From Clostridiales bacterium (GTDB lineage: Bacteria > Bacillota > Clostridia > Lachnospirales > Lachnospiraceae), in assembly GCA_003343625.1 (NCBI GenBank), contig QAKV01000034.1:1-14860 (forward strand): a stretch of 14,860 nt of DNA, read 5' to 3'. Under the pieces are notes generated by a model that was given only the letters and a program-made list of their open reading frames with translations, made no database searches and was not told where the DNA came from. The position numbers and the translations under genes were made by a program. Positions 2,377-14,652 of the stretch are shown piece by piece (position 1 is the stretch's first letter; every line of letters starts with the position of its first letter).

Positions 2377-2396
2377 ATATCCACTCGTTTAGTCAA
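2367..2396 (-). promoter_or_regulatory. Possible internal promoter before the effector gene
   Basis: On the minus strand TTGACT (2396-2391) and TATACA (2372-2367) are separated by 18 bases, a moderate match to a vegetative promoter. It begins over the last codons of the ATPase gene and would initiate inside the hairpin ahead of the effector gene. It could give the last three genes some switch-independent expression. Chance matches of this quality occur in AT-rich DNA. Confidence 0.3.
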
Positions 2397-5300
2397 ACAA
2401 TCTCTTCAATTCACATGGAGAGGGCGAAATATATGGTTTCATTTGGAATGTATTTTTGACGCCATCCGTGAAATAAACTGTGTTATCTCTCAGTCCTGTG
2501 ACCGAGACATTTTCAATAAGGCTGTCTGCATCGTTCGAGCCAAGAGAAAAGATGATCCGCTCAGGAAACTTTGCAAGGATATTTTCTCCATAATACATAC
2601 ACTCTCTTACAGGTTGGTATTCAAGCGAAGTAACTACAAAGTGAATTCCAAAACCTGATCCATCTTCGATAAGTCTAACGAGCTTTTCACCGATCGCCAT
2701 ATTATCATCACTGTCTCTGCTGGCAAACATTGTATTTACCGCTGCAAACGGATCAGCCGGATTAAATTCTGGTTCGGTAGAAACCTTATCAACATATTCA
2801 CTTTCATCTATCACATCACCCTTGAACATAGACTTAACAATATCCAAAAATTGAAGATTTTTGATTACAACAAAAATAACATCATCGCTATTTTGCTTTT
2901 TCCAAGACTGGTAATTCTGATAAATTTCATTTATAAAGTGAATAATATCTGCGCGATCCTGTGCCACTTTGAACTGAGCACTACACTCTGCAAGAGCACT
3001 ATAATAATTTGCCGAGCTATCATCTCCAATAAGTTTATCGCCATCAATGCAATAGACGGTCGCATTGCGATTAAGCAAGGCTGAAATCATATAGTTATTT
3101 GAAATGGTATTTGCCATTTTCTCATTAGCACCACAGATCAAAAGGTTATGTTTCTTTTTCTTGTCGATACAAATAGCAAATGGAGGAGCAACCTTGATAA
3201 GTGTACCCATATGGATATGAACAGGAAGCTCAGAGGTTACTCCAATATTAGCCTCAGCAAAATATTCGAGCAAGTTGATTGTTCTGTTGCCTTCAAAGGT
3301 TTGCAATGTAGACGGTCGATTCGCATAAGTCTTACTTATTAAATCAAGATAATATTTCTGCGTTTCATCATCACAATATGCAACCCTAAATCCTACATTA
3401 GCTTGCTCTGTGTAGTCCTGATTAAGCACTGCGGTACCAATCGGCCCCTTCATCATGGCAAGAGCCTTCTGATCGTTTTGATCTCCGAACAAATAACGCG
3501 CATCGTTCTCCCCACATTTAAGACCGATCCGAATTCTCATTTGTTCAATTGTACCAGAAGATAGTGTGAGATCAGTAATAATCCGTGTTGATTGAGTTGC
3601 CATAAACAAATGAATACCAAATGAACGGCCTTCCGTGACAATTCGCTTAGTCAGTTCTGCACAATGCTGGGCAACTTTCCTATTTGTAGCGTCATTAAAT
3701 AGGATTTGAAACTCGTCCATAATGACTACAATTCGCGGCATTGGTTTCCCCGTAAGCTCTACGTAGTCCTTTATTTTGGTGACACCTTCTGCATCATCTT
3801 TGAATGCCCGGGCACGTTTGTCCATTTCAGCCACCAGATTTTCCAAAATGCTTTCGCCAAATTCTTGCATAGCATCCAACGCGAGCAATTGTATATGCGG
3901 TAATTTAACCGATTCATATATTTTGAATTCTGTACCGCTCTTAAAATCCATAAGGTAAAGATGTAACTGATCCGGGCTATAATGAAGCATACAACTCATG
4001 ATCATCGTATGGAGTAGCGTTGATTTACCAGAACCGGTTGCACCTGCAATCAGACCATGATGGGAAGAGCCTATGCCAACATTGATACTGACGATAGAGT
4101 CTCCATCTCCAATACCAACGGGAATAGACAGCGATTTGGCAGAATTCATAGTGAATAATTCTGGGTGTAAAATATCCTTAAATGACAATCCTTGTTTCTT
4201 TATCGCCTCGCTCTTTTCTACATATTCCTCGATAAATTTATCCACATCGCAAGCTGACAGCGGTTCCAATGTACTAATTGTCAAGTTGTATGGCAGCAGA
4301 CGGTAGTGCCCACTCTTATACTCTATAGAAGTAGAATATTGATGGATCACTTCAAGGCGCTCATCAATGTTCTCATATCTTGAGAAAGGAATATCGGGAT
4401 TATAGCAAATCATGGTATAAACACCGCATTTATTCCCATTCCTCATTATATTGGTGAGTAGATCGATGCTTCGACCATCCATCCCTTTCGGAAAATCATA
4501 AATAATAAGCAATGTGATCGCTTCAGAGCGGGTGGATGTATTCTGGTTGTAATCCAAAATATCATGGTACCTATTTCCAAGCTTTTCTTGGATAAATTCA
4601 TCAATATAATCATTTAATTTCTGAAGGCGAGTCATCATATCTTCAGAGGACGTATATATCTTTTGATCAAATACATCCGGACAAGCCTTTCGGAACTCCA
4701 AAAACGGTATAACACTGTTCCCACGCTTTTCACCGTCAAAAATGCAGATATTTATTCCTGAGACAGGAATAGCAGAGAGTAAACTCCATACCACATGATG
4801 CGTTAAAAGAAGGATTGCATCATTACTGCTCTCCGGGCTATTAAGAAACAGATTGAAATTCTTTTTTAAGTCGAACACCAACGGAAGCTCTACAAGAGCG
4901 GCATCAGAATCAGTCTCATTCTTATACATGAAAGTTTTGCATATTTTTTTGTAAGCGACGCTATCAGAAAAAATATCAGCAGGGTATAGCACTGAACCCA
5001 ATATAACAAAGGTAGGGAATGAAGTTCCAAGTGATGGAACCGTGCCATATTTTTTCTCACTTTCGGCCATAATTGCGCAAATGTGCGAAATGTGAGAGTC
5101 CAAATCCATTGAGTCTCTGGAATCAACAAGCTGCTTAATAAGCGGAGAGAACGCAATTCCTCGGTTCTTAATACCTTCATATATCAACATATACTTTCCA
5201 AAGAACGAGCCGAACTGCTTCTTCTCTGGTAAGACATGGTACGTCAAGGGCAGTCCACAGAAAATAAATTCACTGTTTTCTTGTTGAATAACTGTAGATA

Positions 5301-6774
5301 GGTCAAGGACTGACTGAACATTTTTTTGATATTCACTTGAGTATGTAGTTTCTGAACTTGGCTGGCAATGTATAAGGACATAAATCCCGCATTTCGCTCC
5401 ATTCCGAAGAATATTCCTCAATTCGCCCAAAGTACGTTCATCAAATCCCTTAGGGAAATCATAAATTGTAAGCAATTCAGTCTGGAAGTCATAATCACCA
5501 TGTTCCCGCGCATAATCAAAAATATTTGCATATTCAGTTCCAATTTTATCTTGCAGCAAATTCTCAATCCGGGTATTTAATTGTTCGATTTTGTTGGCTA
5601 TTTCATTTTTGCTTATATAAATTTGGTCTCCAAAAAGCTCAGGCAATTTTTTCTTTGCATCAAAGAAAGGAGAAATGCTATTCCCGTGGTTTTCCGGATC
5701 AAACACACTATACATAAGCTTTGAAACGGGAACCGAAGAAAGGTAACCGAACATGACAGAATGAGTAAATTCCTGCACTGCTGTCAAATTGCTATTATCG
5801 CTCAAAACAAGCCAAACAGGAGCATCTTGGACGGATGCGGCGACTGGAAAACGTATTGAACCGTCTACAACTAATGACTTGCATTTTTCACGAAGCGTAT
5901 TTGCAACTATAGCGGATTGAACAAAAAAATCGACCGGATAATCTATGAACATCATATTGAACGTGTCATTGCAAAGCTCATCTGATGAATTCACTTTGAA
6001 AACTTGTGAATTATAGTGATCCATTAACACGTGTAAATACTCTACAAATTCGTCGGGTAAGATGTTGTCTAAATCAGCGCAGATTTCTGACGCAACATCA
6101 TCTAATGTAATAAGATACTTCTCTTCAAATGCTTCGAGTTCATCTTTTTGACGTTTTTCTAATTGCCCTTTCTTTTCTAAATAGTCTTTTCTGTACGAGG
6201 CAATTTGTTCATTCACAATTTGCGGCAATTCGACTTCAATCTCTTTCACAAAGGCGGTCACTGTATTACGAAGAATTATCAAATCCTCATAATCCTTTTT
6301 CCTCTGACTCGAAAACAAGTAATTGAGGCCGTTAATAAGGCCGGGCAGTATATCCTCAGCATATTTTTTGTAGAGTGAGGTAAATCTCTCTTGAATTACA
6401 CCCAAGGTTTCAAAATAGTCTGTTGATTCGGTAAAGCCAGTATCGGTTTTCTCCAATAGGCTTTCTTCTCTTTTTTTCTTTGTTTTCACAAAGTATTTAT
6501 CTACAGCAGATAATTTGTCCTCGAGCTTTATGATCTCATCGAGAATACTTTTTGCATCACGTAGTGTACGCTGTGACTGCCTGTTGATTGCAGCACAGGA
6601 TGCTTGGAAAGTGCTCTCCAAATTCCCAGACTCACTCTTATGCCTGCTATACATGGTGTTCTTCTGGCGAGCATAATTTTCTTTTGTTGAAGTAATTAGT
6701 GCCTCAGCCTTATCAGCAAATGCATTGATGTCCGAAATCAATGCAATAATTTCTGCTTGTGCAATTGCTTTCAT
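2389..6774 (-). CDS. FtsK/SpoIIIE-type ATPase of a divergent type VII secretion system
   Basis: The product is 1461 aa. Residues 1-250 are mostly coiled coil, not the FHA domains and membrane helices of EssC. Two tandem related segments follow (about 315-480 and 635-800), each containing a YDFPKG[FM]D motif (D439, D760) and an NILRNGAKCG or NIMRNGNKCG segment, but no Walker A; they look like degenerate ATPase repeats. The single intact motor has Walker A GATGSGKST (K917) and Walker B RIVVIMDEF (D1020, E1021). A third degenerate domain at about 1190-1460 has CGANEKMA where a P-loop would be. The ATG at 6774 is chosen because GGAAGGA lies nine bases upstream. WXG100-type genes and a putative effector in the same operon suggest it powers their export. 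The absence of membrane segments means it must dock on another membrane protein. Confidence 0.9.
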   Translation of the reverse strand: MKAIAQAEIIALISDINAFADKAEALITSTKENYARQKNTMYSRHKSESGNLESTFQASCAAINRQSQRTLRDAKSILDEIIKLEDKLSAVDKYFVKTKKKREESLLEKTDTGFTESTDYFETLGVIQERFTSLYKKYAEDILPGLINGLNYLFSSQRKKDYEDLIILRNTVTAFVKEIEVELPQIVNEQIASYRKDYLEKKGQLEKRQKDELEAFEEKYLITLDDVASEICADLDNILPDEFVEYLHVLMDHYNSQVFKVNSSDELCNDTFNMMFIDYPVDFFVQSAIVANTLREKCKSLVVDGSIRFPVAASVQDAPVWLVLSDNSNLTAVQEFTHSVMFGYLSSVPVSKLMYSVFDPENHGNSISPFFDAKKKLPELFGDQIYISKNEIANKIEQLNTRIENLLQDKIGTEYANIFDYAREHGDYDFQTELLTIYDFPKGFDERTLGELRNILRNGAKCGIYVLIHCQPSSETTYSSEYQKNVQSVLDLSTVIQQENSEFIFCGLPLTYHVLPEKKQFGSFFGKYMLIYEGIKNRGIAFSPLIKQLVDSRDSMDLDSHISHICAIMAESEKKYGTVPSLGTSFPTFVILGSVLYPADIFSDSVAYKKICKTFMYKNETDSDAALVELPLVFDLKKNFNLFLNSPESSNDAILLLTHHVVWSLLSAIPVSGINICIFDGEKRGNSVIPFLEFRKACPDVFDQKIYTSSEDMMTRLQKLNDYIDEFIQEKLGNRYHDILDYNQNTSTRSEAITLLIIYDFPKGMDGRSIDLLTNIMRNGNKCGVYTMICYNPDIPFSRYENIDERLEVIHQYSTSIEYKSGHYRLLPYNLTISTLEPLSACDVDKFIEEYVEKSEAIKKQGLSFKDILHPELFTMNSAKSLSIPVGIGDGDSIVSINVGIGSSHHGLIAGATGSGKSTLLHTMIMSCMLHYSPDQLHLYLMDFKSGTEFKIYESVKLPHIQLLALDAMQEFGESILENLVAEMDKRARAFKDDAEGVTKIKDYVELTGKPMPRIVVIMDEFQILFNDATNRKVAQHCAELTKRIVTEGRSFGIHLFMATQSTRIITDLTLSSGTIEQMRIRIGLKCGENDARYLFGDQNDQKALAMMKGPIGTAVLNQDYTEQANVGFRVAYCDDETQKYYLDLISKTYANRPSTLQTFEGNRTINLLEYFAEANIGVTSELPVHIHMGTLIKVAPPFAICIDKKKKHNLLICGANEKMANTISNNYMISALLNRNATVYCIDGDKLIGDDSSANYYSALAECSAQFKVAQDRADIIHFINEIYQNYQSWKKQNSDDVIFVVIKNLQFLDIVKSMFKGDVIDESEYVDKVSTEPEFNPADPFAAVNTMFASRDSDDNMAIGEKLVRLIEDGSGFGIHFVVTSLEYQPVRECMYYGENILAKFPERIIFSLGSNDADSLIENVSVTGLRDNTVYFTDGVKNTFQMKPYISPSPCELKRLFD

Positions 6775-6814
6775 AGATAACATTCCTTCCATCGAACATC
6801 AATGCCGTGTTGAC

Positions 6815-7966
6815 TTACTTTTCCTCTAACTCATACTTGCAGATACAGTCGGTTTTACATTTTGGATTTCTGAAATCAACAACCAGTGATGTTGTAATCT
6901 GAAGAGGGTAAGAGAAAATCTCTACCATCTCGCCGCCAATTTTGGGATTCGATGTATTGCAAATTACAGTGTATTGTTTAAGTTCGTTTACAAGGCGGGG
7001 GATATATTCCTCATTTGTTAGATTGAGCAAATCTATGATTATCTTAATTCCAATTGTTGTAATGAAGTTAATATCAACTGAGATACCCGGTTCAAATTTA
7101 AGTCCTTCCGTATTTTCTTGGTTGGAATAGACGTGATGATTAGCTTGCGCTCGTGCAGAGATTGTACCTCCATCACCTAACGCACACTCGTAACATGGCA
7201 TTCCGCGATTAGGAATATGGTAAAAAATTTCTCCTGCATATGCCCGCTCCCAAAATCCAATTGAAATAAAATAAGCAGAATAGTAGATGCTAATTCTATT
7301 CGCATAAACATCGGCTGCTCTATTATCGGCGCACCCAACAAAAATTGTATCTCCTTCTACGCAAAAATCATCCAACATGGCTTTGGGGAGATTCTGGATT
7401 ATACCTTCAAACTTCTCTATGTGTACATTCGGATTTATGCTCTGCAATTTTCTCTCCAAAGCATTGATCTTGAGATCGCCAACATCTTCTATACCACATT
7501 GATGTCTACAGATATTATGATACTCAACAATGTCCGGATCTGCGAGAAGAAAATAACCGACACCAGCACGTGCAAGTTCCATAGCTACCAAGCTGCCTAC
7601 AGAACCGCATCCGAGAATAATTGCTCTCTTTTTTGCCATAACGTCAGTCTCAAGAATTCCTTTGTTTCTCGAGAAAATACTTTGATACAGTCCATATGAT
7701 TCAACCTTCAATTTCTTTCCATCATAGTAAAAATCGACACGATCATCCGTAGAGATGGCTTCCAGCCCTTTATGCGTAAGAGAGTAACCGGCAGTTTTGA
7801 CCTCGCATAAAAACTCCCCACGTTGTTCTAATGTTTCCGGGAAAACATTGAAAATATAAGTGTCTTCAAAATAGTGTCCAAATAGCTTTCGAGGAGAACG
7901 ATTTGCAAGTTGCTCTTCTGAGATAAATACCGTCTTCTCAATTTCGTCGTTAAAAAAATTCTGCAT
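6815..7966 (-). CDS. ThiF/E1-like adenylyltransferase
   Basis: The product is 383 aa. Residues 1-110 form an N-terminal extension I cannot name. The Rossmann-type E1 core begins with the nucleotide loop GCGSVG (119-124), followed by D143/D145 (LLADPD), R154 (NICRHQ), K166 and D214-N215 in GCADNR, the residue set that binds ATP in ThiF, MoeB and E1 enzymes. A zinc-site Cys set is present: C258 and C261 (PCYEC) with C370, C374 and C376 at the C-terminus. C212 (GCADN) sits where the ThiF/MoeB family often has Cys. Expected activity is adenylation of the C-terminus of a ubiquitin-like modifier and its transfer toward the E2-like partner encoded two genes upstream. The ATG at 7966 is preferred, with AAGGTG nine bases before it; a GTG at 7978 overlaps the JAMM gene. 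Confidence 0.88.
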   Translation of the reverse strand: MQNFFNDEIEKTVFISEEQLANRSPRKLFGHYFEDTYIFNVFPETLEQRGEFLCEVKTAGYSLTHKGLEAISTDDRVDFYYDGKKLKVESYGLYQSIFSRNKGILETDVMAKKRAIILGCGSVGSLVAMELARAGVGYFLLADPDIVEYHNICRHQCGIEDVGDLKINALERKLQSINPNVHIEKFEGIIQNLPKAMLDDFCVEGDTIFVGCADNRAADVYANRISIYYSAYFISIGFWERAYAGEIFYHIPNRGMPCYECALGDGGTISARAQANHHVYSNQENTEGLKFEPGISVDINFITTIGIKIIIDLLNLTNEEYIPRLVNELKQYTVICNTSNPKIGGEMVEIFSYPLQITTSLVVDFRNPKCKTDCICKYELEEK

Positions 7967-7970
7967 GAGA

Positions 7971-8978
7971 TCATTCACCTTTCTTGTAAAATCCTATCAA
8001 CTTCAAGACACCATTAACTATCTTTGAAGGATCAGTAGCATCAGAACCTGATTTTTCATCTTCAGATTCATCGCCCTTACGTTGTACCTCTGTTGCGATA
8101 CGGTAAAGGTTTTCCAAAAGTCCTTCTTCGTATATGTAATTATTCCCTTCAAACTGAAATATTACTTGCTTCTTCATATCATCGTATGCGAAAAAGGCTT
8201 TGCACACCCCATCAATGGTGTCCTGCACTAAAGCCAATAATCCATCTTTCTGAAGAACAGACATCTCTATTCCTAATACATCAGACATAAATGTAATATC
8301 AGGAACAACTCGGTCAATAAGGTTGTTATTGATTTCTTCGCTATATAGGGGAGGACGTACTGCTTGTTCTTTTATCAAACGATCCACCAGGTACGGCATG
8401 ATACGTTGAAAAAAAGAGTTCATGCTTGCTGACGGGTGTAATTCTTCCTGCTTTTTGGAAGGAGAAAGAATCCGCTTCATGATCTTTTCAAAATGATCTG
8501 CCGTTTTTAGTCTCAGATATTTTTCTGGTATAAAATCATTTCCAACAACATAGGCGATTTTAGTGTATTTACAGGGCGGTGCCACGTGGTACATTGTAAG
8601 TCGAAATCTTGGATCAACATTCACAAGCGCAGAGATTGCCCCTTCACCACGCATTTTTGCGTACTTAGAGTTGGTGCCGTTATCTGTCGATGAAAAAACA
8701 TCAAACGAGCCGGGATGCCTATGCCATAACCCTATAAGATCAAGTTTAGCTTCGTATATATTCGCAACTTTGTTTATAAGATGTTGTGTATACGTCTGAT
8801 CATACTCAAAATAGGCGACTTCAAAGACCGATTTGGGACCAGGATCAATGGCTTCAATGACATACCATATACCATTCTCAACTGTCCCTAAAAATAATCC
8901 CCCTGTCTCTGTTTCAATCTTTTCTGTGGTTTCTGCCATGATCGCCGAGAATGCTCTATCAGAAAAAACCACCTTCAT
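7971..8978 (-). CDS. JAMM/MPN (Mov34) metalloprotease, deubiquitinase-like
   Basis: The product is 335 aa. The N-terminal half (1-180) is an MPN domain with a complete JAMM zinc site: E24 (ETGGLFLG), H86 and H88 in LWHRHPGS, S96 and D99 in SSTD. This family removes or trims ubiquitin-like modifiers by cutting isopeptide bonds or C-terminal tails. Residues 190-335 form an extra domain I do not recognise, with a charged low-complexity tail (about 295-315, GDESEDEKSGSD). The ATG at 8978 is chosen because GGAGG precedes it by 8 bases; upstream in-frame codons run through a hairpin and lack a ribosome site. The stop lies 4 bases before the ThiF start, indicating coupling. It probably matures or removes whatever the E1/E2 pair conjugates. 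Confidence 0.9.
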   Translation of the reverse strand: MKVVFSDRAFSAIMAETTEKIETETGGLFLGTVENGIWYVIEAIDPGPKSVFEVAYFEYDQTYTQHLINKVANIYEAKLDLIGLWHRHPGSFDVFSSTDNGTNSKYAKMRGEGAISALVNVDPRFRLTMYHVAPPCKYTKIAYVVGNDFIPEKYLRLKTADHFEKIMKRILSPSKKQEELHPSASMNSFFQRIMPYLVDRLIKEQAVRPPLYSEEINNNLIDRVVPDITFMSDVLGIEMSVLQKDGLLALVQDTIDGVCKAFFAYDDMKKQVIFQFEGNNYIYEEGLLENLYRIATEVQRKGDESEDEKSGSDATDPSKIVNGVLKLIGFYKKGE

Positions 8979-9000
8979 GTTTATACCTCCAATAGCAAAG

Positions 9001-9042: not shown

Positions 9043-9591
9043 TTAGTAATTACCCTCCATAGCAACATCGTCGCTAATTTCTCCGTTCAGCCACATTTCG
9101 CAGAGGACAATCCATTTGCAAGCCCAGCTCAAAGCGGATGCAGCAGATGTCGAGTATGTTTGCCCCGATTTGAAATACTTCGGATCAGCGGTACAAATAA
9201 AATATTCCTCGTTACGGCCAAAATTATCGCGGTAAATGTGAGGAAGGCCAAGTCCGAAACCATGTCTTGCTGCATTGTCATATGTGCCATAAGTATCTAT
9301 GATAAGCGGCATCATTCGTTCGGCAATATCTTTGAGCCTTGGCTTAACTGGCAAAATTTGAACAGAGCCACCGTATTCGCCTTGGGATGCATGAGGATGG
9401 TCATTTTTGTAGATGAGCATCAGGTCCCACACCATACCACCTTCCCCAGTAGGCTGTACCTTACCTCGCCAGTACAAACGACCAGAGCCATCCGGCAGTT
9501 GGTTAATTTGGAATGAGGGGAAAAACTTACGCATTGCAGCGACCTCAGCCTGATATAGCTGTGGATCGCTTTGATACCAGTAGAACGCCAT
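9043..9591 (-). CDS. E2-like (ubiquitin-conjugating-fold) protein
   Basis: The product is 182 aa, within the E2 size range. It has an N-terminal helix (about 8-24), beta-strand segments including GRLYWRGKVQ and VWDLMLIY, then a conserved LPHIY segment (H118), and C133 in EYFICTADPKYF. The C-terminal helical part carries TSAASALSWACKW and EMWLNG (W160, W167). Bacterial E2-like proteins characteristically show a PH motif, then a Cys after a hydrophobic strand, then a tryptophan-rich C-terminal helix ending in W-x-x-G. C133 is the proposed thioester site. The location two genes before the E1-like gene, with the JAMM gene between, supports the call. It begins 3 bases after the preceding stop, with the ribosome site inside that gene's last codons. 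Similarity is motif-level; no search was run. Confidence 0.72.
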   Translation of the reverse strand: MAFYWYQSDPQLYQAEVAAMRKFFPSFQINQLPDGSGRLYWRGKVQPTGEGGMVWDLMLIYKNDHPHASQGEYGGSVQILPVKPRLKDIAERMMPLIIDTYGTYDNAARHGFGLGLPHIYRDNFGRNEEYFICTADPKYFKSGQTYSTSAASALSWACKWIVLCEMWLNGEISDDVAMEGNY

Positions 9592-9594
9592 ACT

Positions 9595-9780
9595 TTAGTC
9601 CTCCTTAGCAAGCTTGCCCTGAGGGACTTCAATACCAGAGAGACCATTGTCCTGCATTTCATCTTTCTGGCCGACTTCGCCAGTAGGAGTTACCACCACA
9701 GGTTCGCCTTGCCTAAGAGCCTCGGCCAATGCGCGGCGACGAGCAGCGATAGCATCATTGTTCACATTATTGTTTTCCAT
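9595..9780 (-). CDS. 61-aa protein of unknown function
   Basis: A good ribosome site (AAGGAGG) precedes the ATG at 9780, and its final codons AAG GAG GAC supply the ribosome site of the E2-like gene, so it is very probably expressed. The N-terminus is polar (ENNNVNND), followed by a basic/Ala helix (about 9-24, AARRRALAEALRQG), a short hydrophobic strand VVVTPTG (28-34), and a Gly-containing tail with GIEVPQG (49-55) before KLAKED. It lacks the length and alternating strands of a beta-grasp ubiquitin-like fold and has no terminal di-glycine. Position directly before the E2-like gene makes it a candidate substrate, modifier precursor or adaptor for the conjugation enzymes. That is inference from position. 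Confidence 0.75.
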   Translation of the reverse strand: MENNNVNNDAIAARRRALAEALRQGEPVVVTPTGEVGQKDEMQDNGLSGIEVPQGKLAKED

Positions 9781-9811: not shown

Positions 9812-10660
9812 TTATGCAGCAGCTCGGAAATCACGGATAATTTCGCCATGTTCATTGATCATAGTAGTTGCCTGACGAAGAGCCGCATCCGCAGCTTCTT
9901 CACCCTGATCTCGAACTGCCTGAGCATAAGAGTTATTGTACAGTTCACTGCCTTCGTTCATAAGGGTTTCAAGGTCAACGCCCTTATTCTGATTTCGTAC
10001 AAGGGTATATTCCATATAGGCCCGCATCTGATCAAGTGCTGCCGAATCAGATTCGATAAATCCTTGTGTCTTTCTGATGTAGTTAATGTAGTAAAATGTA
10101 TTGCTGACTGTCACCCAAATGCACTTGAACACGATAACAATGATTTGGACTATAATCGAGAGAATGGTCAGAATACCGAACTGGCCTTGAAACGCAATCT
10201 TGATGGCTTCCCATGTCAATGAGCCAAATGCTTTCAAGGCGCTCAGGAACACGCCGCCGATGCAGGCACAGATTAAACCAGCAACAAAGCCACCGCCGAT
10301 GTCGCCACTTGAAATCCCGGCTCCGAGACCATATATGAAGCCAATAACCATGCCGATAATCTGCAAAATAAACTGACCTTTAATTTTTTTCAGGTTTGCA
10401 TTTAGATCGGCGACATTTTCGGAAACAAGCTGCTGACAACAATCATAACACAAACACTTCCCAGCATAGTCACCGGAAGTTACACCATATGCCTCTGCAC
10501 AATCTTTACAAATGTACTTCCCGCAACGAGCACACTGTGCAACCGCAGGCTCAGTCGGATGATGGTAGCACACAGGACCATCATGCTGTGGCTGGGGCGG
10601 TGGCGTAAATGTAGGTGCGGTCGGTGGTGTGAAAGTTGGAATTTTACTATTTTCTCCCAT
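9812..10660 (-). CDS. Membrane protein with B-box/treble-clef-like zinc finger
   Basis: The product is 282 aa. A Pro/Thr-rich N-terminus with a repeated TFTPP motif (about 9-24) precedes a Cys/His cluster: C31, H34, C43, C46, C51, C54, C69, C71, C74 and C75. The C-x2-H ... C-x2-C-x4-C-x2-C pattern suits a B-box or related binuclear treble clef. Hydrophobic segments at about 97-113, 122-145 and 161-185 should place it in the membrane. The C-terminal 90 residues are helical and charged. GGAGG lies 8 bases before the ATG. It is one of only two clear membrane proteins in the operon, so it may anchor the FtsK-type ATPase. Zinc domains of this class act as E3 ligases or adaptors in eukaryotes, so an E3-like role beside the E1/E2 genes is possible but unproven. 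Confidence 0.78.
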   Translation of the reverse strand: MGENSKIPTFTPPTAPTFTPPPQPQHDGPVCYHHPTEPAVAQCARCGKYICKDCAEAYGVTSGDYAGKCLCYDCCQQLVSENVADLNANLKKIKGQFILQIIGMVIGFIYGLGAGISSGDIGGGFVAGLICACIGGVFLSALKAFGSLTWEAIKIAFQGQFGILTILSIIVQIIVIVFKCIWVTVSNTFYYINYIRKTQGFIESDSAALDQMRAYMEYTLVRNQNKGVDLETLMNEGSELYNNSYAQAVRDQGEEAADAALRQATTMINEHGEIIRDFRAAA

Positions 10661-10688: not shown

Positions 10689-10958
10689 TTAAAATTTGAC
10701 ACTGTTATACTGATCCAACGACTGTGCAAGCTTCTCCAACTTTGGTAAAGCTGCTCTAAGTGTATCAATTGGAGTAGCTGTAAGTCTCGCGATCTGTTGC
10801 ATCAACATATTAAACTGAGCTGCTTGGGCGTCGTCCCATCCAGCCGAGGCCGACATCCCGGTTCTAATTCCATTGCTAATTCTCTCAATATCCTTAATCG
10901 TATCGGATATATCCTTTTTCATTTCCCGAATAGCTTCTGGTGATGCTTTTACTGCCAT
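10689..10958 (-). CDS. WXG100-family secreted protein
   Basis: The product is 89 aa, typical for WXG100. Two amphipathic helices (about 7-36 and 44-85) flank a turn with AGWDD (W41), the position of the W-x-G motif, here with Asp in place of Gly. There is no signal peptide or Cys. The gene follows the 93-aa WXG-like gene by 13 bases with a GGAG ribosome site before the ATG. Proteins of this type form helical hairpin dimers that are exported by FtsK-type ATPases, often as obligate partners of larger substrates. It may pair with the 93-aa protein or with the effector N-terminus. Confidence 0.85.
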   Translation of the reverse strand: MAVKASPEAIREMKKDISDTIKDIERISNGIRTGMSASAGWDDAQAAQFNMLMQQIARLTATPIDTLRAALPKLEKLAQSLDQYNSVKF

Positions 10959-10971
10959 ATATCACATCTCC

Positions 10972-11253
10972 TTATAAGTTAGTAGATTCGTAGTCCTGAA
11001 TGGCGGCAAGCAAATCCTGCAATTTCCCCATGCATTCTTGCAGCTCACCTATCGGTTTTGTCAGAGCGCTACAGCATTCTTCGACAATCCCACCAAGTGC
11101 CGCGTATTTTTGATCCTTCCATCCACCTGAACCAGCTTGCTGATAACTTCTTTTCAGGCTATTCGAGGCTGCTTCAAGTTCATGCATAGATGTCCGGCAG
11201 CATCCAATACCGCCTTGAACAGCAGCACTCTCTACAGAAACTCCACTTGCCAT
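10972..11253 (-). CDS. WXG100-like protein with WKDQKY motif
   Basis: The product is 93 aa. A helical hairpin surrounds GGWKDQKYAALGGIVEEC (W45 at the turn). This segment is almost the same as that in the N-terminus of the effector at 1304-2305, and the 75-aa protein at 12037-12264 has a looser version, so the three appear to be locus paralogues. Cys residues occur near the N-terminus (CCR) and in the second helix (EECC, ECM), unusual for WXG100 proteins and possibly able to form disulfides outside the cell. GGAGG precedes the ATG at 11253. It is likely an exported partner or structural component of the T7SS. Confidence 0.8.
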   Translation of the reverse strand: MASGVSVESAAVQGGIGCCRTSMHELEAASNSLKRSYQQAGSGGWKDQKYAALGGIVEECCSALTKPIGELQECMGKLQDLLAAIQDYESTNL

Positions 11254-11279: not shown

Positions 11280-12026
11280 TTATATTGATACAGACATATA
11301 GCTGTCAATGCTGGCAATGCACTGATCAAGCGCGGACGAGTTGTTTTGTGTAATACTACTTGATGTGGCTTCAAATTTCTTTACAGCATTTAGGTACTCA
11401 TTCAAGTCAGCCTCAGTTCTTGTAAAGGCACTTTTAAGGCGAGCCAGTTTGTCTCTTAAATGGCTGTATCTCTTTTTTTCGGTTTCCATAGAAGCTATTA
11501 ACTCTGATAACTTAGCTTTTAAGGAAGTGATTTTTTGTCTTAACTCAATTTTCCTATTCTCAGCGTTTTGTAACTGATCGGTAAGTTGAGCGACGGCACG
11601 TTCATTCTGAGCCAGTTTCGATTCAAGCATATCTATTTGAGATTGTATCTCTTGACGTTGTTTGTCATCGTCACACTTTGCTAATTGAGCTCGTAGTGCA
11701 GATAACTGAGAGCGAATTGAAGTAATTTGTTCATTGAGAGAATAAATTCGAGTACGAATTTGGGGAATACTCTTTTCGACAGAATCAATCTCTGCACTTA
11801 GATGAGAAATTTGGTTTTCAGTCGCATCGACAGCTTTCTCTATGCTTTTAATTCTTGTTTCAGATTGAGCCACGTCATTTTCTGTAGAAATGATTTTTTC
11901 GTGCGATTCTGCAAGAATAAGATCTATCTTATTTGCCACTCGCGGTGCTAATCCACTAATATCATTTCTGAAATCTCCCAGCGCAGCCTTAATGCCCATA
12001 AGTGCTTCTTCTGATACACTTACCAT
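11280..12026 (-). CDS. Long coiled-coil protein
   Basis: The product is 248 aa. An N-terminal helical part (1-40) is followed by an almost unbroken coiled coil to about residue 215, rich in Glu, Lys, Gln and Ser with heptad-like Leu/Ile spacing. The C-terminal 30 residues (ending DSYMSVSI) are Ser-rich. There is no signal peptide, membrane helix or catalytic motif. Its start (SVSEEALMGIKAALGDFRNDI) resembles the first helix of WXG/LXG-type proteins. A GGGGGCG ribosome site lies before the ATG at 12026, and the gene follows the preceding stop by 10 bases. It could be an exported structural substrate, a chaperone, or a scaffold for the coiled-coil N-terminus of the ATPase. None of these is shown by the sequence. 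Confidence 0.78.
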   Translation of the reverse strand: MVSVSEEALMGIKAALGDFRNDISGLAPRVANKIDLILAESHEKIISTENDVAQSETRIKSIEKAVDATENQISHLSAEIDSVEKSIPQIRTRIYSLNEQITSIRSQLSALRAQLAKCDDDKQRQEIQSQIDMLESKLAQNERAVAQLTDQLQNAENRKIELRQKITSLKAKLSELIASMETEKKRYSHLRDKLARLKSAFTRTEADLNEYLNAVKKFEATSSSITQNNSSALDQCIASIDSYMSVSI

Positions 12027-12036
12027 AAAGCGCCCC

Positions 12037-12264
12037 CTAATACTTTTCAGAGGCTATCTTCTCTAATTGATCAACGGATTTGCAGCCTCTTTCTCCAATG
12101 ACTATAACATCCCTTGAAATACGCGCAATCTCTTGAATGGAGGCAAACAGATCGGAATATTTGCTATCAGTCCAAATTGATGAAGCTTTACTTATTTCAC
12201 TGCTAAGTTTCTTTACAGACTTCTCAAATTCTTGAATATCAGTGCGCATAAGTGACGAGTTCAT
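12037..12264 (-). CDS. Short WXG100-like protein
   Basis: The product is 75 aa with two helices around IWTDSKYSDLF (W31), matching the W-x-D-x-K-Y signature of the 93-aa protein and the effector N-terminus. The second helix is shorter than in standard WXG100 proteins. Its ATG overlaps the stop of the HTH gene by four bases (ATGA), with GGGAG seven bases upstream, so translation is coupled to the regulator. It is probably a secreted or partner protein of the T7SS. The family call depends on the shared motif with neighbours. Confidence 0.72.
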   Translation of the reverse strand: MNSSLMRTDIQEFEKSVKKLSSEISKASSIWTDSKYSDLFASIQEIARISRDVIVIGERGCKSVDQLEKIASEKY

Positions 12265-12608
12265 AATTCGCTCCCGATCTGACCAATTTTACCTGTCAGC
12301 CAGCATTCATCTAACCGATTTGGAAAAGCATCTAACTGACGAATCGTATTGTGAGAAGCCGGATTATAGTCAAAGAAGAGAATAAGCGCCATATAAGTGC
12401 TCCATGACATTTGCCGTTTCTGGGATTCGATTGCATTGTATGTTTGCCTTGATACGCCAATAGCATTTGATATTTCCTCTTGTGAGGCTTGTACCGAAGC
12501 TCGAAGCATGGGCAGCGCCACTGTGAGTTTACGAATGAGCGCCCCTTTTTCTTCCTTTGTAAAGTGCCAATAATCCATATATGACCTTCTCTTACTCTCC
12601 GAAATCAT
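12261..12608 (-). CDS. Small XRE-like HTH regulator heading the operon
   Basis: The product is 115 aa. A helix-turn-helix is visible at about residues 40-70 (ASQEEISNAIGVSRQTYNAI), followed by ESQKRQMSWSTYMALILFF, as in XRE-type repressors. The C-terminal 35 residues are not recognised. The ATG at 12608 has AAGGTG about 5 bases upstream; an internal ATG at 12578 with its own AGAAGG is an alternative that would keep the HTH. It is the first gene after the switch promoter, so it is made only when the operon is on and may feed back on the operon or on the recombinase promoter. The target operator is not identified. Confidence 0.78.
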   Translation of the reverse strand: MISESKRRSYMDYWHFTKEEKGALIRKLTVALPMLRASVQASQEEISNAIGVSRQTYNAIESQKRQMSWSTYMALILFFDYNPASHNTIRQLDAFPNRLDECWLTGKIGQIGSEL

Positions 12609-12631: not shown

Positions 12632-12657
12632 TTTCGTAGAGTATTCCCCTTGACGAT
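12632..12657. repeat. Left inverted repeat (recombination site) of the invertible segment
   Basis: This 26-bp sequence is the exact reverse complement of 14070-14095. Internally it has 8-bp arms TCGTAGAG (12634-12641) and CTTGACGA (12649-12656), which match as inverted copies at 6 of 8 positions, around a 7-bp spacer TATTCCC. This is the layout of a tyrosine-recombinase core site. It falls in the 5' untranslated leader of the operon, between the promoter and the first gene. Confidence 0.9.
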
Positions 12658-12685
12658 GACTCGTCCAGCGACTTTTATGCTTATA

Positions 12686-12714
12686 ATTTTACATGGTGTT
12701 GCTGGATTTGTCAA
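12686..12714 (-). promoter_or_regulatory. Near-consensus promoter of the secretion/conjugation operon
   Basis: On the minus strand a perfect -35 box TTGACA (12714-12709) is followed by a 17-base spacer and -10 box TAAAAT (12691-12686). Initiation near 12679 would give a leader of about 70 bases crossing the left inverted repeat before the HTH gene at 12608. The promoter lies inside the inverted-repeat-bounded segment, so inversion would detach it from the operon. Confidence 0.85.
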
Positions 12715-12863
12715 GATGTAAAAGAGGAATTCGCCCGAACTCGGCCGATAAATCGTTTAATTGGCACTTTTTGGGGGGATAGACAGGGTGACGATGGCTA
12801 TTTCGTTTCCTTTCTCCGTCAGATAATCCGTCAACCCAAAATTACTGAGTGAGGAAGGAAACA

Positions 12864-13997
12864 ATGTCAAGAACAGGAGAAAATATCTACAAACGTAAGG
12901 ATGGGCGCTGGGAGGCGCGATATATAAAATATTACGATGGCAATGGCAAAGCTAAATATGGCTATGTTTACGGTCACTCATATGCAGAAGCCAAGAGTAA
13001 ACTGATTCGCTGTCTAACTTCTATCAAAAGCGGCCCTGCGTCTAATAGTAAACCAAACTCCTTTAAGGGATTTGACTTTTGGCTGGATGAATGGTTAAAG
13101 GTAAAGAAGGTAAGAGTGAAGGAACCTACCTACATACGATATAGAAACTCTATCGAGAATCATATCAAGCCATATTTGGGGAAATATCCGATTGAGCGGA
13201 TTAGTACTGCTCTGATCGAAAAATTCGCACAATACCTTCTTGAAAAAGGAAGGCTGGATAAAACCGGAGGACTTTCTGAAAAAAGTGTTTTGGATATTTT
13301 AACAATAGTAAAGGAAGTAATTAAATATACAAATACCCTTGGAATTGCGACTTCTTGCCAAATAGAATTTATCCCACTGAAGAACAAACGAAAAGAGATG
13401 CGAGTGCTCTCCAAAGAAGAAAGCCAAAAACTCGTTAGTTATCTGACCGTCGATACCGATAATTATAAATTCGGCATCTTCTTAGCGTTCTATACCGGTA
13501 TTAGAGTTGGCGAGTTATGTGCGCTTCAATGGAAAGATTTGTCTTTCAATGATAAGACTCTTCATATTTCAAAAACCATGCAGAGACTTCAAAAGGTAGA
13601 GCATAATGAAGAAAAGAAAACCCATGTGATTGTTGTTGAGGCAAAAAGTCAATCGTCCCATAGACTTATACCACTGCCTGACTTTATCCTTGAAATGGCT
13701 TCAAAATACAAGCAGTCTCCGAATTGTTACATTATTTCAACATCCCGTGGAAAGTTCATTGAGCCTCGGGTAATGCAATACCAATTCAAGAAGTGTATGG
13801 AAGATTGCGGAATAAAGGATGTAAATTTCCATGCATTACGACATACGTTTGCTACACGATGTATTGAGGCGGGATTCGATATAAAAACACTTAGTGAGAT
13901 CTTGGGACATTCCAGTGTTAAAATTACTCTTGATAAATACGTGCATTCATCACTTGAACTTAAAAGGATTAACATGGAAAAACTACGGATGTTCTAA
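12864..13997 (+). CDS. Tyrosine recombinase (integrase family) of the promoter switch
   Basis: The product is 377 aa. Residues 1-50 resemble an AP2-like arm-binding domain (YKRKDGRWEARYIKYYDGNG), 67-170 a SAM-like core-binding domain, and 180-377 the catalytic domain. Catalytic residues are R214 (TGIRVGE), H323 and R326 (HALRHTF), H349 (LGHSS) and the nucleophile Y359 (LDKYVH). The ATG at 12864 is preferred, with GAGGAAGGA just upstream; a GTG at 12849 precedes that site. The gene is divergent from the operon and lies wholly between 26-bp inverted repeats that look like its own core sites. This suggests it inverts the segment that carries it and the operon promoter. No excisionase, relaxase or direct-repeat att pair is visible nearby, although an element integrase remains possible. 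Confidence 0.92.
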   Translation: MSRTGENIYKRKDGRWEARYIKYYDGNGKAKYGYVYGHSYAEAKSKLIRCLTSIKSGPASNSKPNSFKGFDFWLDEWLKVKKVRVKEPTYIRYRNSIENHIKPYLGKYPIERISTALIEKFAQYLLEKGRLDKTGGLSEKSVLDILTIVKEVIKYTNTLGIATSCQIEFIPLKNKRKEMRVLSKEESQKLVSYLTVDTDNYKFGIFLAFYTGIRVGELCALQWKDLSFNDKTLHISKTMQRLQKVEHNEEKKTHVIVVEAKSQSSHRLIPLPDFILEMASKYKQSPNCYIISTSRGKFIEPRVMQYQFKKCMEDCGIKDVNFHALRHTFATRCIEAGFDIKTLSEILGHSSVKITLDKYVHSSLELKRINMEKLRMF

Positions 13998-14028
13998 TAT
14001 TATTCGCCGTCATTTTTCTGGTCAGGAT

Positions 14029-14069
14029 AAAGGTACAATCCCAGCACATACACGGGTTTGTGCCTTTTT
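14029..14069 (+). terminator. Intrinsic terminator of the recombinase gene
   Basis: Positions 14029-14042 pair with 14054-14067 (one U-U mismatch, one wobble) around an 11-nt loop, and the right arm runs into a TTTTT tract. It lies 32 bases after the recombinase stop and ends at the edge of the right inverted repeat. In the flipped orientation it would keep recombinase transcripts out of the operon. Confidence 0.75.
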
Positions 14070-14095
14070 ATCGTCAAGGGGAATACTCTACGAAA
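14070..14095. repeat. Right inverted repeat (recombination site) of the invertible segment
   Basis: Exact reverse complement of 12632-12657 over 26 bp. The arms are TCGTCAAG (14071-14078) and CTCTACGA (14086-14093) around the spacer GGGAATA, the complement of the left spacer. Because the two sites are inverted with identical spacers, recombination between them would invert the 1.4 kb between them rather than delete it. Confidence 0.9.
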
Positions 14096-14105
14096 TAGAT
14101 TCTGG

Positions 14106-14138
14106 TCGGTAGGTGAAGTTCACCTACCGATTTTTTTT
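14106..14138 (+). terminator. Strong intrinsic terminator just outside the right repeat
   Basis: A perfect 10-bp stem (TCGGTAGGTG 14106-14115 with CACCTACCGA 14121-14130), a 5-nt loop and then eight T. Only 10 bases separate it from the right inverted repeat, and the recombinase already has its own terminator, so it has no obvious client gene as sequenced. It would stop transcription from the switch promoter after inversion. Confidence 0.92.
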
Positions 14139-14307: not shown

Positions 14308-14652
14308 ATGCAGGAAAAAGAATTATGTCTCCAAGAAATAGGGCAAAGGATAATAGATCGAAGGAAACAACTTGGCCTAACTCAGGAAGCTCTTGCTGAA
14401 AAAGGGGAGATGACAACCCAATTTGTTTCTTATGCTGAATCAGGAAAGAGAGCTATGCGGCCTGAAAATCTACTTAAAATTTCATCAGCCTTGGGCGTAA
14501 GCGCAGATTACTTGCTCACCGGGGATGTTATAGATAAAGACCTGCTACTATTGTCTGATAAGCTTCGCAAGCTAACTCCAACTCAAATTAGAATTATCGA
14601 AACTATCATAGACGAAACGATAGAATTATTTGAGCCCCGCGACAAACAATAA
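14308..14652 (+). CDS. XRE-family transcriptional repressor
   Basis: The product is 114 aa. A clear N-terminal HTH_3 domain spans about residues 8-66 (IGQRIIDRRKQLGLTQEALA, then TTQFVSYAESGKRAM and LLKISSALGVSADYLLTG), the Cro/CI-type fold with the common DYLLTG ending. The C-terminal helical tail (KLRKLTPTQIRIIETIIDET) probably dimerises. ATAGGGGGTG precedes the ATG by 5 bases. It is transcribed away from the invertible segment and separated from it by the orphan terminator. It may control itself through the upstream palindrome, and possibly the recombinase or a neighbouring element to the right; neither is shown. Confidence 0.9.
   Translation: MQEKELCLQEIGQRIIDRRKQLGLTQEALAEKGEMTTQFVSYAESGKRAMRPENLLKISSALGVSADYLLTGDVIDKDLLLLSDKLRKLTPTQIRIIETIIDETIELFEPRDKQ

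Follow-up and report, generated by a model that had tools for sequence, protein, structure and literature searches.

A recombinase-bearing segment bounded by inverted repeats as a probable invertible promoter switch for a type VII secretion-like operon with E1-, E2- and JAB-type genes

A 1,464-bp segment at the head of a 14-gene operon in contig QAKV01000034.1 of a Clostridiales bacterium is, with a probability of roughly 0.8 on our reading of the sequence, a self-contained phase-variation cassette that gates the operon. The stretch of DNA analyzed, referred to here as the window, spans 14,860 nt. An invertible promoter switch with its own tyrosine recombinase had been proposed at this position in a first-pass annotation, and comparison with relatives makes that mechanism well supported: naturally inverted pairs, a conserved outward promoter, the placement of terminators, and an HTH partner gene found on either side of the cassette all point to it. 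By the same comparison, the window segment is one of a large family and not unique.

In terms of mechanism, an Int-type tyrosine recombinase would pair two inverted 26-bp core sites and flip the segment between them in the window's strain. In the ON state, which is the state as assembled, a promoter at the left edge would face outward and transcribe the 14-gene T7SS-like/E1–E2–JAB operon from the HTH gene onward; we infer that transcription of the whole operon depends on this promoter. In the OFF state, the inverted promoter would face the other side, where transcription would halt at an outer terminator, and the recombinase's own terminator would block read-through into the operon. The CCGTCA motifs that flank the recombinase gene would probably serve as arm-type sites for the N-terminal domain of the enzyme.

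A repeat scan of the window places the left recombination site at 12632–12657 and the right site, its perfect inverted copy, at 14070–14095. The two 26-nt arms are 100% complementary and are spaced 1412 nt apart, and the chance expectation for such an arm pair is ~6e-8 at the length and composition of the window; the perfect repeats around a segment of ~1.46 kb described in the first-pass annotation are thus confirmed. The left half of the left site fits the family consensus, TTTCGYAGAGT-N5-ACTCTRCGAAA, and its right half is degenerate. The exact 26-bp site has no occurrence in viral_contigs, and a plasmid search returned no near match of the window sequence.

The segment contains, as had been claimed, a tyrosine recombinase gene and its own terminator. 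The gene (12864–13997, plus strand, with an alternative GTG start at 12849), assigned from its ORF, Pfam and alignment, is intact and encodes 377 aa with Phage_integrase and SAM-like core-binding domains (Pfam). Residues R214, K261, H323, R326, H349, and Y359 are invariant across 24 aligned sequences, and we take them to be the catalytic R-K-H-R-H-Y set of an Int-type tyrosine recombinase. The predicted structure of the protein has a pLDDT of 79.9. The terminator of the gene (14032–14069, plus strand), whose T tract abuts the right site, scored 30 in the cassette analysis but is absent from the sites of the window's terminator scan.

At the left inner edge, an outward near-consensus promoter is present as described, facing the operon in the assembled, ON orientation (12686–12714, minus strand). 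The predicted site comprises TTGACA at 12714–12709, a 17-nt spacer, and TAAAAT at 12691–12686, and matches 11 of 12 consensus positions. A promoter scan of the window returns 48 sites, three of which, including this one, score 11/12, and shuffled sequences return 41.8 (sd 6.1); the match alone is therefore within chance, and the reality of the promoter rests on its conservation in relatives. In the stretch of 64 repeat-bounded cassettes that runs from the left repeat to the start of the recombinase gene, the best outward promoter scores 11–12 of 12 in 26 and the best inward promoter does so in none. The outward score is the higher in 47 cassettes, tied in 12, and the lower in 5 (Wilcoxon 2.8e-9), a conserved outward bias.

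Beyond the right repeat lies an outer intrinsic terminator found in the terminator scan (14104–14138, plus strand; stem 14104–14132, 13 pairs, followed by a T tract), at which transcription from the inverted promoter would end. By sequence arithmetic, the predicted transcription start at ~12679 would map to ~14048 after inversion, ~56 nt before this terminator, which agrees with the "tens of bases" of the first-pass annotation. Across the family, both an outer terminator and a single outward client could be called in 29 loci, and in 24 of these the two are on opposite sides of the cassette (Fisher p 0.004). This figure depends on automatic and crude client and terminator calls, with a terminator threshold of the analyst's choice, and it retains two misplaced client calls (L020 and L086, in which the HTH client is on the other side). 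The other 35 of the 64 cassettes are not callable; 14 of them have a one-sided client but no flanking terminator that passes the threshold, and the window belongs to the 35 because both of its neighbors face outward.

The relatives behind these counts come from a large population. A protein search with the window recombinase gave 7,994 homologues among 7,999 scored, and among the best 120 of these the identity drops from 86% directly to 59%, with P0002–P0005 at 86–97%. In 23 of the same 120 (counted by hand), the longest contig measures 1,437–1,488 bp, which is the size of the cassette; in three it measures 1,490–1,550 bp and in one 1,370–1,430 bp. Cassette-sized contigs are the expected assembly outcome for a segment in two orientations or for a multicopy segment, and because a multicopy element would produce an identical peak, we rejected the peak as proof that the segment inverts. 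A scan of genome_contigs and one of viral_contigs together supplied 160 loci (the best 80 of 581 and the best 80 of 493). The cassette analysis took the 80 genome loci, 7 viral loci (L081–L086 and L149), the window, and locus L180, giving 89 rows, 86 of them different; L021 and L023 (the same element as L020) and L083 (the same as L082) were dropped before counting.

An ungapped repeat pair with a score of at least 14 surrounds the recombinase in 64 of the 86 non-redundant loci, mostly 1.39–1.6 kb in extent, and in none of the 86 when the right flank is shuffled. Direct-orientation matches of that score occur in 6 of the 86, perhaps because the sites are palindromic or tandem, and 23 of the 89 rows have no good repeat pair around the recombinase. 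The 53 anchorable sites yield the consensus given above, an imperfect palindrome of the core-site type; anchoring was on a short pattern, so that positions 3–9 are favored, and 11 rows, L180 among them, could not be anchored. Some cassettes (L007, L022, L030, L034, and L052) have a second repeat pair, and such tandem sites could allow more than two states. With a cut-off of E 1e-20, genome G351 has eight related recombinases, seven by profile, and possibly several switches.

A motif scan located two CCGTCA motifs upstream of the window's recombinase gene (12816–12821 and 12828–12833) and one after its stop codon (14007–14012), all on the plus strand, as candidate arm-type sites. On the strand of the recombinase, the motif is present upstream of the start in 40 of the 64 repeat-bounded cassettes, downstream of the stop in 40, and on both sides in 38, and mononucleotide shuffles predict 1.3 and 1.0, respectively, for the two sides; the reverse complement is found in 4 upstream and 2 downstream. 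L180, despite its unrelated core site, is counted among the cassettes bearing the motif. The 23 rows without good repeats have it in 9 and 6 cases. For comparison, 20 more distant phage integrases were hand-picked for long matches from the other 73 viral loci and examined with fixed flanks of 150 and 120 nt. None of the 20 has the pair, vs 35 of 62 repeat-bounded loci (window and L180 excluded) when flanks are fixed in the same way. The motifs are probably arm-type sites bound by the N-terminal domain of the recombinase.

Relatives in the opposite orientation were sought, and they were found for the family. L016 and L024 share a 1,475-bp segment that is 93% identical in the same orientation, with flanks that are homologous in the opposite one: positions 11192–11931 of L016 match 1665–938 of L024 (741 bp, 72%), and positions 9705–9764 match 3150–3093 (60 bp, 77%) as the second inverted flank. 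The breakpoints coincide with the repeats. The cassette of L038 is likewise inverted relative to homologous flanks in L048 and L053, again with breakpoints at the repeats. Among the relatives compared, there is no inverted copy of the window's own locus.

The side on which the HTH gene lies provides a second record of orientation. In the initial set, ten non-redundant loci have this first gene of the window's operon next to the cassette. It is on the promoter side in two (the window, at 24 nt, and L071, at 734 nt with a JAB-like ORF in between) and on the opposite side in eight, with L003 a weak case. When 368 genomes were searched for the HTH gene, 17 had a match and 17 loci were fetched. The family recombinase is beside the gene in five, on the other side in each and in two as the L020 element; eleven have no adjoining family recombinase, and one (L215) has a remote recombinase (23%) and is omitted from the tally. 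Overall, 2 loci are ON (window and L071) vs 11 OFF, a tally that also omits weaker hits further out or in longer proteins (L019, L015, L082, L083, second hits of L020, L021, and L023, and L062, where the HTH hit falls in a 427-aa ORF that is 97 nt away on the promoter side). The OFF excess means that flipping could be rare or one-way.

The putative client comprises 14 closely packed minus-strand ORFs running from 12608 down to 161, the first of them 24 nt from the left repeat. The HTH regulator (12261–12608; Pfam HTH_3, 22.8 bits against a cut-off of 23), a recurrent neighbor of the cassette family, is followed by a small WXG-like protein of 75 aa (12037–12264; no Pfam hit), a coiled-coil protein (11280–12026; coiled-coil models only), a small WXG100-like protein (10972–11253; similarity to WXG proteins, no Pfam hit), and a putative WXG100 protein (10689–10958; Pfam 26.5 bits, just under the cut-off of 27.3). 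Next are a zinc-finger protein, B-box-like below the Pfam cut-off (9812–10660), and an ORF of 61 aa (9595–9780). The E2-fold protein (9043–9591), with invariant H118 and C133, was assigned by alignment, structure comparison, and PADLOC, the JAB-domain protein (7971–8987, with a possible start upstream at 9068) and the E1-like ThiF-family protein (6815–7978) by Pfam and PADLOC. The operon continues with an FtsK/SpoIIIE ATPase (2389–6792) and a protein with a WXG-like N-terminal part (1304–2350; WXG similarity, no Pfam hit), a candidate secreted substrate, and ends with a DUF7675 protein (1099–1320) and an M48 metallopeptidase (161–1102), both assigned by Pfam. A perfect 27-bp hairpin at the operon end (80–136) is terminator-like on both strands.

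The first-pass annotation had called this a combined T7SS-like and ubiquitin-like operon. The nearest NCBIfam models of the ATPase are EssC and EccC, with 117.6 bits against an EssC cut-off of 778.4 and 114.4 against an EccCa cut-off of 509.15; since the WXG100 and EssC/EccC scores are below curated cut-offs, we term the operon T7SS-like and not T7SSa or b. The E1, E2-fold, and JAB proteins are present and match PADLOC models of CBASS type II, the E2 being closest to the CdnG-associated E2; a Foldseek search with the E2 structure model gave no significant hit, and VIA-align ranked E2-fold chains at the top. No ubiquitin-like modifier was recognised by Pfam among the 14 genes. A CD-NTase gave no hit among the 14 by Pfam, nor among seven of them by PADLOC. 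When the ten locus genomes were searched for ThiF (E 1e-5), 6 of the 10 had matches, all of them weak and general (best 1.3e-11).

Related operons occur with and without the cassette. L180 has a syntenic operon (13 of 14 genes) with a distant recombinase (40%), other repeats, and its cassette in the OFF orientation; the syntenic operons of L192 and L194 have no recombinase of the window's family on their contigs. In L199 (1–7709), E1–E2–JAB genes follow a recombinase end and site, and a HerA/TraG-like ATPase (by eye) replaces FtsK. An identical cassette-bearing stretch is found in Butyricicoccus, Blautia, and Agathobaculum (L020, L021, and L023); in this element the HTH gene is followed by an Erm-like methyltransferase ORF (by eye), and the T7SS-like operon is reduced to its tail. 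A client protein of 1,058–1,084 aa recurs in L061, L073, and L086, and in all but L073 it comes after the HTH gene; the L086 copy, the only one scanned, contains HerA/DUF87 (Pfam), and a Big_2 protein is also encoded in L086. The XRE regulator at 14308–14652 of the window has a 76% identical relative beside the L031 cassette, and a relative of the L020 XRE gene is divergently upstream of the cassette-free L194 operon (by eye).

Of the competing explanations, the one that survives best, though we consider it unlikely, is that the segment is a switch by origin that is now locked or nearly so in the window's strain, leaving the operon constitutively ON. It would account for the lack of a second orientation of the window's locus among the relatives compared and for the degenerate right half of the window site relative to the family, and the 11 to 2 OFF skew would fit slow flipping. 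However, all 26 bp agree between the two repeats, the recombinase is intact and has its catalytic residues, and the degenerate right half (TTGACG) recurs in the near relatives L001 and L002, whose repeats are also intact.

It is less probable again, and in our view improbable, that the recombinase is a mobile-element integrase acting on a distant att pair, or that the repeats are transposon-like ends, with the orientations arising from independent insertions. The recombinase does resemble integrases (it matches phrog_1, and the matching solved chains are named only "Int protein"), its relatives occur in 2,763 of 50,697 phage records (all <60% identity, best 48%), the stretch shared by L020, L021, and L023 is identical across three genera, the cassette-sized contigs also fit multicopy elements, and 23 of 89 relatives lack good repeats. 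Against this, L016/L024 and L038/L048/L053 keep homologous flanks around the inverted cassette (in L016/L024, 741 bp on one side and only 60 bp on the other), the repeats are imperfect palindromes of the core-site type, no direct repeat was found by eye in the bases adjoining the window's two repeats, and the layout of promoter and outer terminator is built around a client gene. We rejected a transposon or distant att pair as the main reading on the flank homology, the core-site palindromes, and the client-oriented layout. Slightly more doubtful still is a two-client toggle, in which the T7SS-like operon and the outward XRE regulator would take turns as the promoter's client: an XRE-like gene is found outside the far or promoter-facing site in the window, L020 (9241–9669), L031, L061 (by eye), and L086 (by translated match to L020), but the strong terminator of 13 pairs plus T tract separates the right site from the XRE gene in the window, and terminator-like sites occupy the same place in L020, L031, and L086.

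Returning to the invertible switch, a broader reading, for which we see even odds, is that a very large family of Int-type recombinases in Clostridia constitutes an exchangeable phase-variation cassette of fixed plan, ordered as outer terminator, core site, promoter, arm motif, recombinase, arm motif, terminator, core site, and client. Different cassette lineages would have been placed repeatedly before operons of ubiquitin-type enzymes and secretion-type ATPases (the window, L180, L199, L002, and the interrupted L020 type), and from this repeated placement population-level bet-hedging would be a regular feature of such operons. If the switch reading is right, a secretion-like system with bacterial ubiquitin-type enzymes would be an on/off lottery within a population and, as 11 of 13 HTH-partner relatives are assembled OFF, systems of this kind may go unexpressed in routine culture. 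The fixed plan would make the switches findable by sequence and give a ready orientation assay, the cassette would offer a compact flip module for Clostridia, and the repeated operon capture would allow a test of whether such functions are advantageous in only part of a population.

The fixed plan, the CCGTCA pair, and the repeated coupling to ubiquitin-type and secretion-type ATPase operons were not found described in the literature searched, whose coverage is incomplete and partly limited to portions of papers. Within the same coverage, which includes few subscription papers or preprints, there was no report of an invertible promoter of a T7SS among the papers listed and no match for the combination of inverton, recombinase, and type VII secretion; the items that did come up included a bifidobacterial pilus paper and a 2006 paper on prokaryotic ubiquitin antecedents. 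A 2019 Science survey reportedly treated invertible promoters, and Aravind and co-workers are said to have published later surveys of bacterial ubiquitin-type operons.

The class of mechanism is already known, from Hin and from invertons. The first-pass annotation had stated that invertible promoters beside tyrosine recombinases are an established arrangement in gut bacteria. Inverton group 139, as far as the accessible text describes it, is dominated by Clostridia, has a tyrosine-type recombinase family nearby (invertase group 35), and shifts orientation over passages; inversion of the invertons near group 35 is visible in reads (PMC11892184). Group 139 invertons resemble the window cassette in the first two respects; the sole example given with coordinates in that text, at ~257 bp, is unlike it in being too short for a recombinase gene (PMC11892184). 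The ESX-1-associated phase variants of M. tuberculosis likewise touch a type VII secretion system, but the consulted sections attribute them to indels in homopolymeric tracts, in contrast to the DNA inversion proposed here (PMC11898584). T7SS subtypes c–j combine WXG100 proteins with an EssC-type ATPase in Bacillota, which the WXG100-like proteins and the ATPase of the window operon resemble; most of these subtypes have a YukD-like protein, whereas the window operon has E1, E2-fold, and JAB proteins and YukD was not recognised in it, and the main text on the subtypes, the part consulted, has no mention of ThiF, JAB, or a recombinase (PMC11217815). The likeness to CBASS type II E1–E2/JAB modules lies in the PADLOC matches of the three proteins; unlike CBASS, no CD-NTase is recognised among the window genes, and E1 and E2 are separate genes. 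RecV of Clostridioides difficile, in the accounts available in part, is likewise a tyrosine recombinase of a Clostridia relative that acts on invertible regulatory segments, but it inverts several switches, whereas each cassette of the window's family carries its own recombinase; the RecV gene is not known to be carried inside the segments that RecV inverts. In Hin/fljBA of Salmonella, a promoter within the segment drives the adjacent operon. Hin is also, in the excerpts consulted, an example of a recombinase gene within its invertible segment, as in the window cassette (PMC5903667). Hin is described in the accessible part of a further source as a serine recombinase with a Fis-bound enhancer (PMC3798978), whereas the window cassette has an Int-type tyrosine recombinase, core sites that are palindromic, and CCGTCA motifs flanking the gene on either side.
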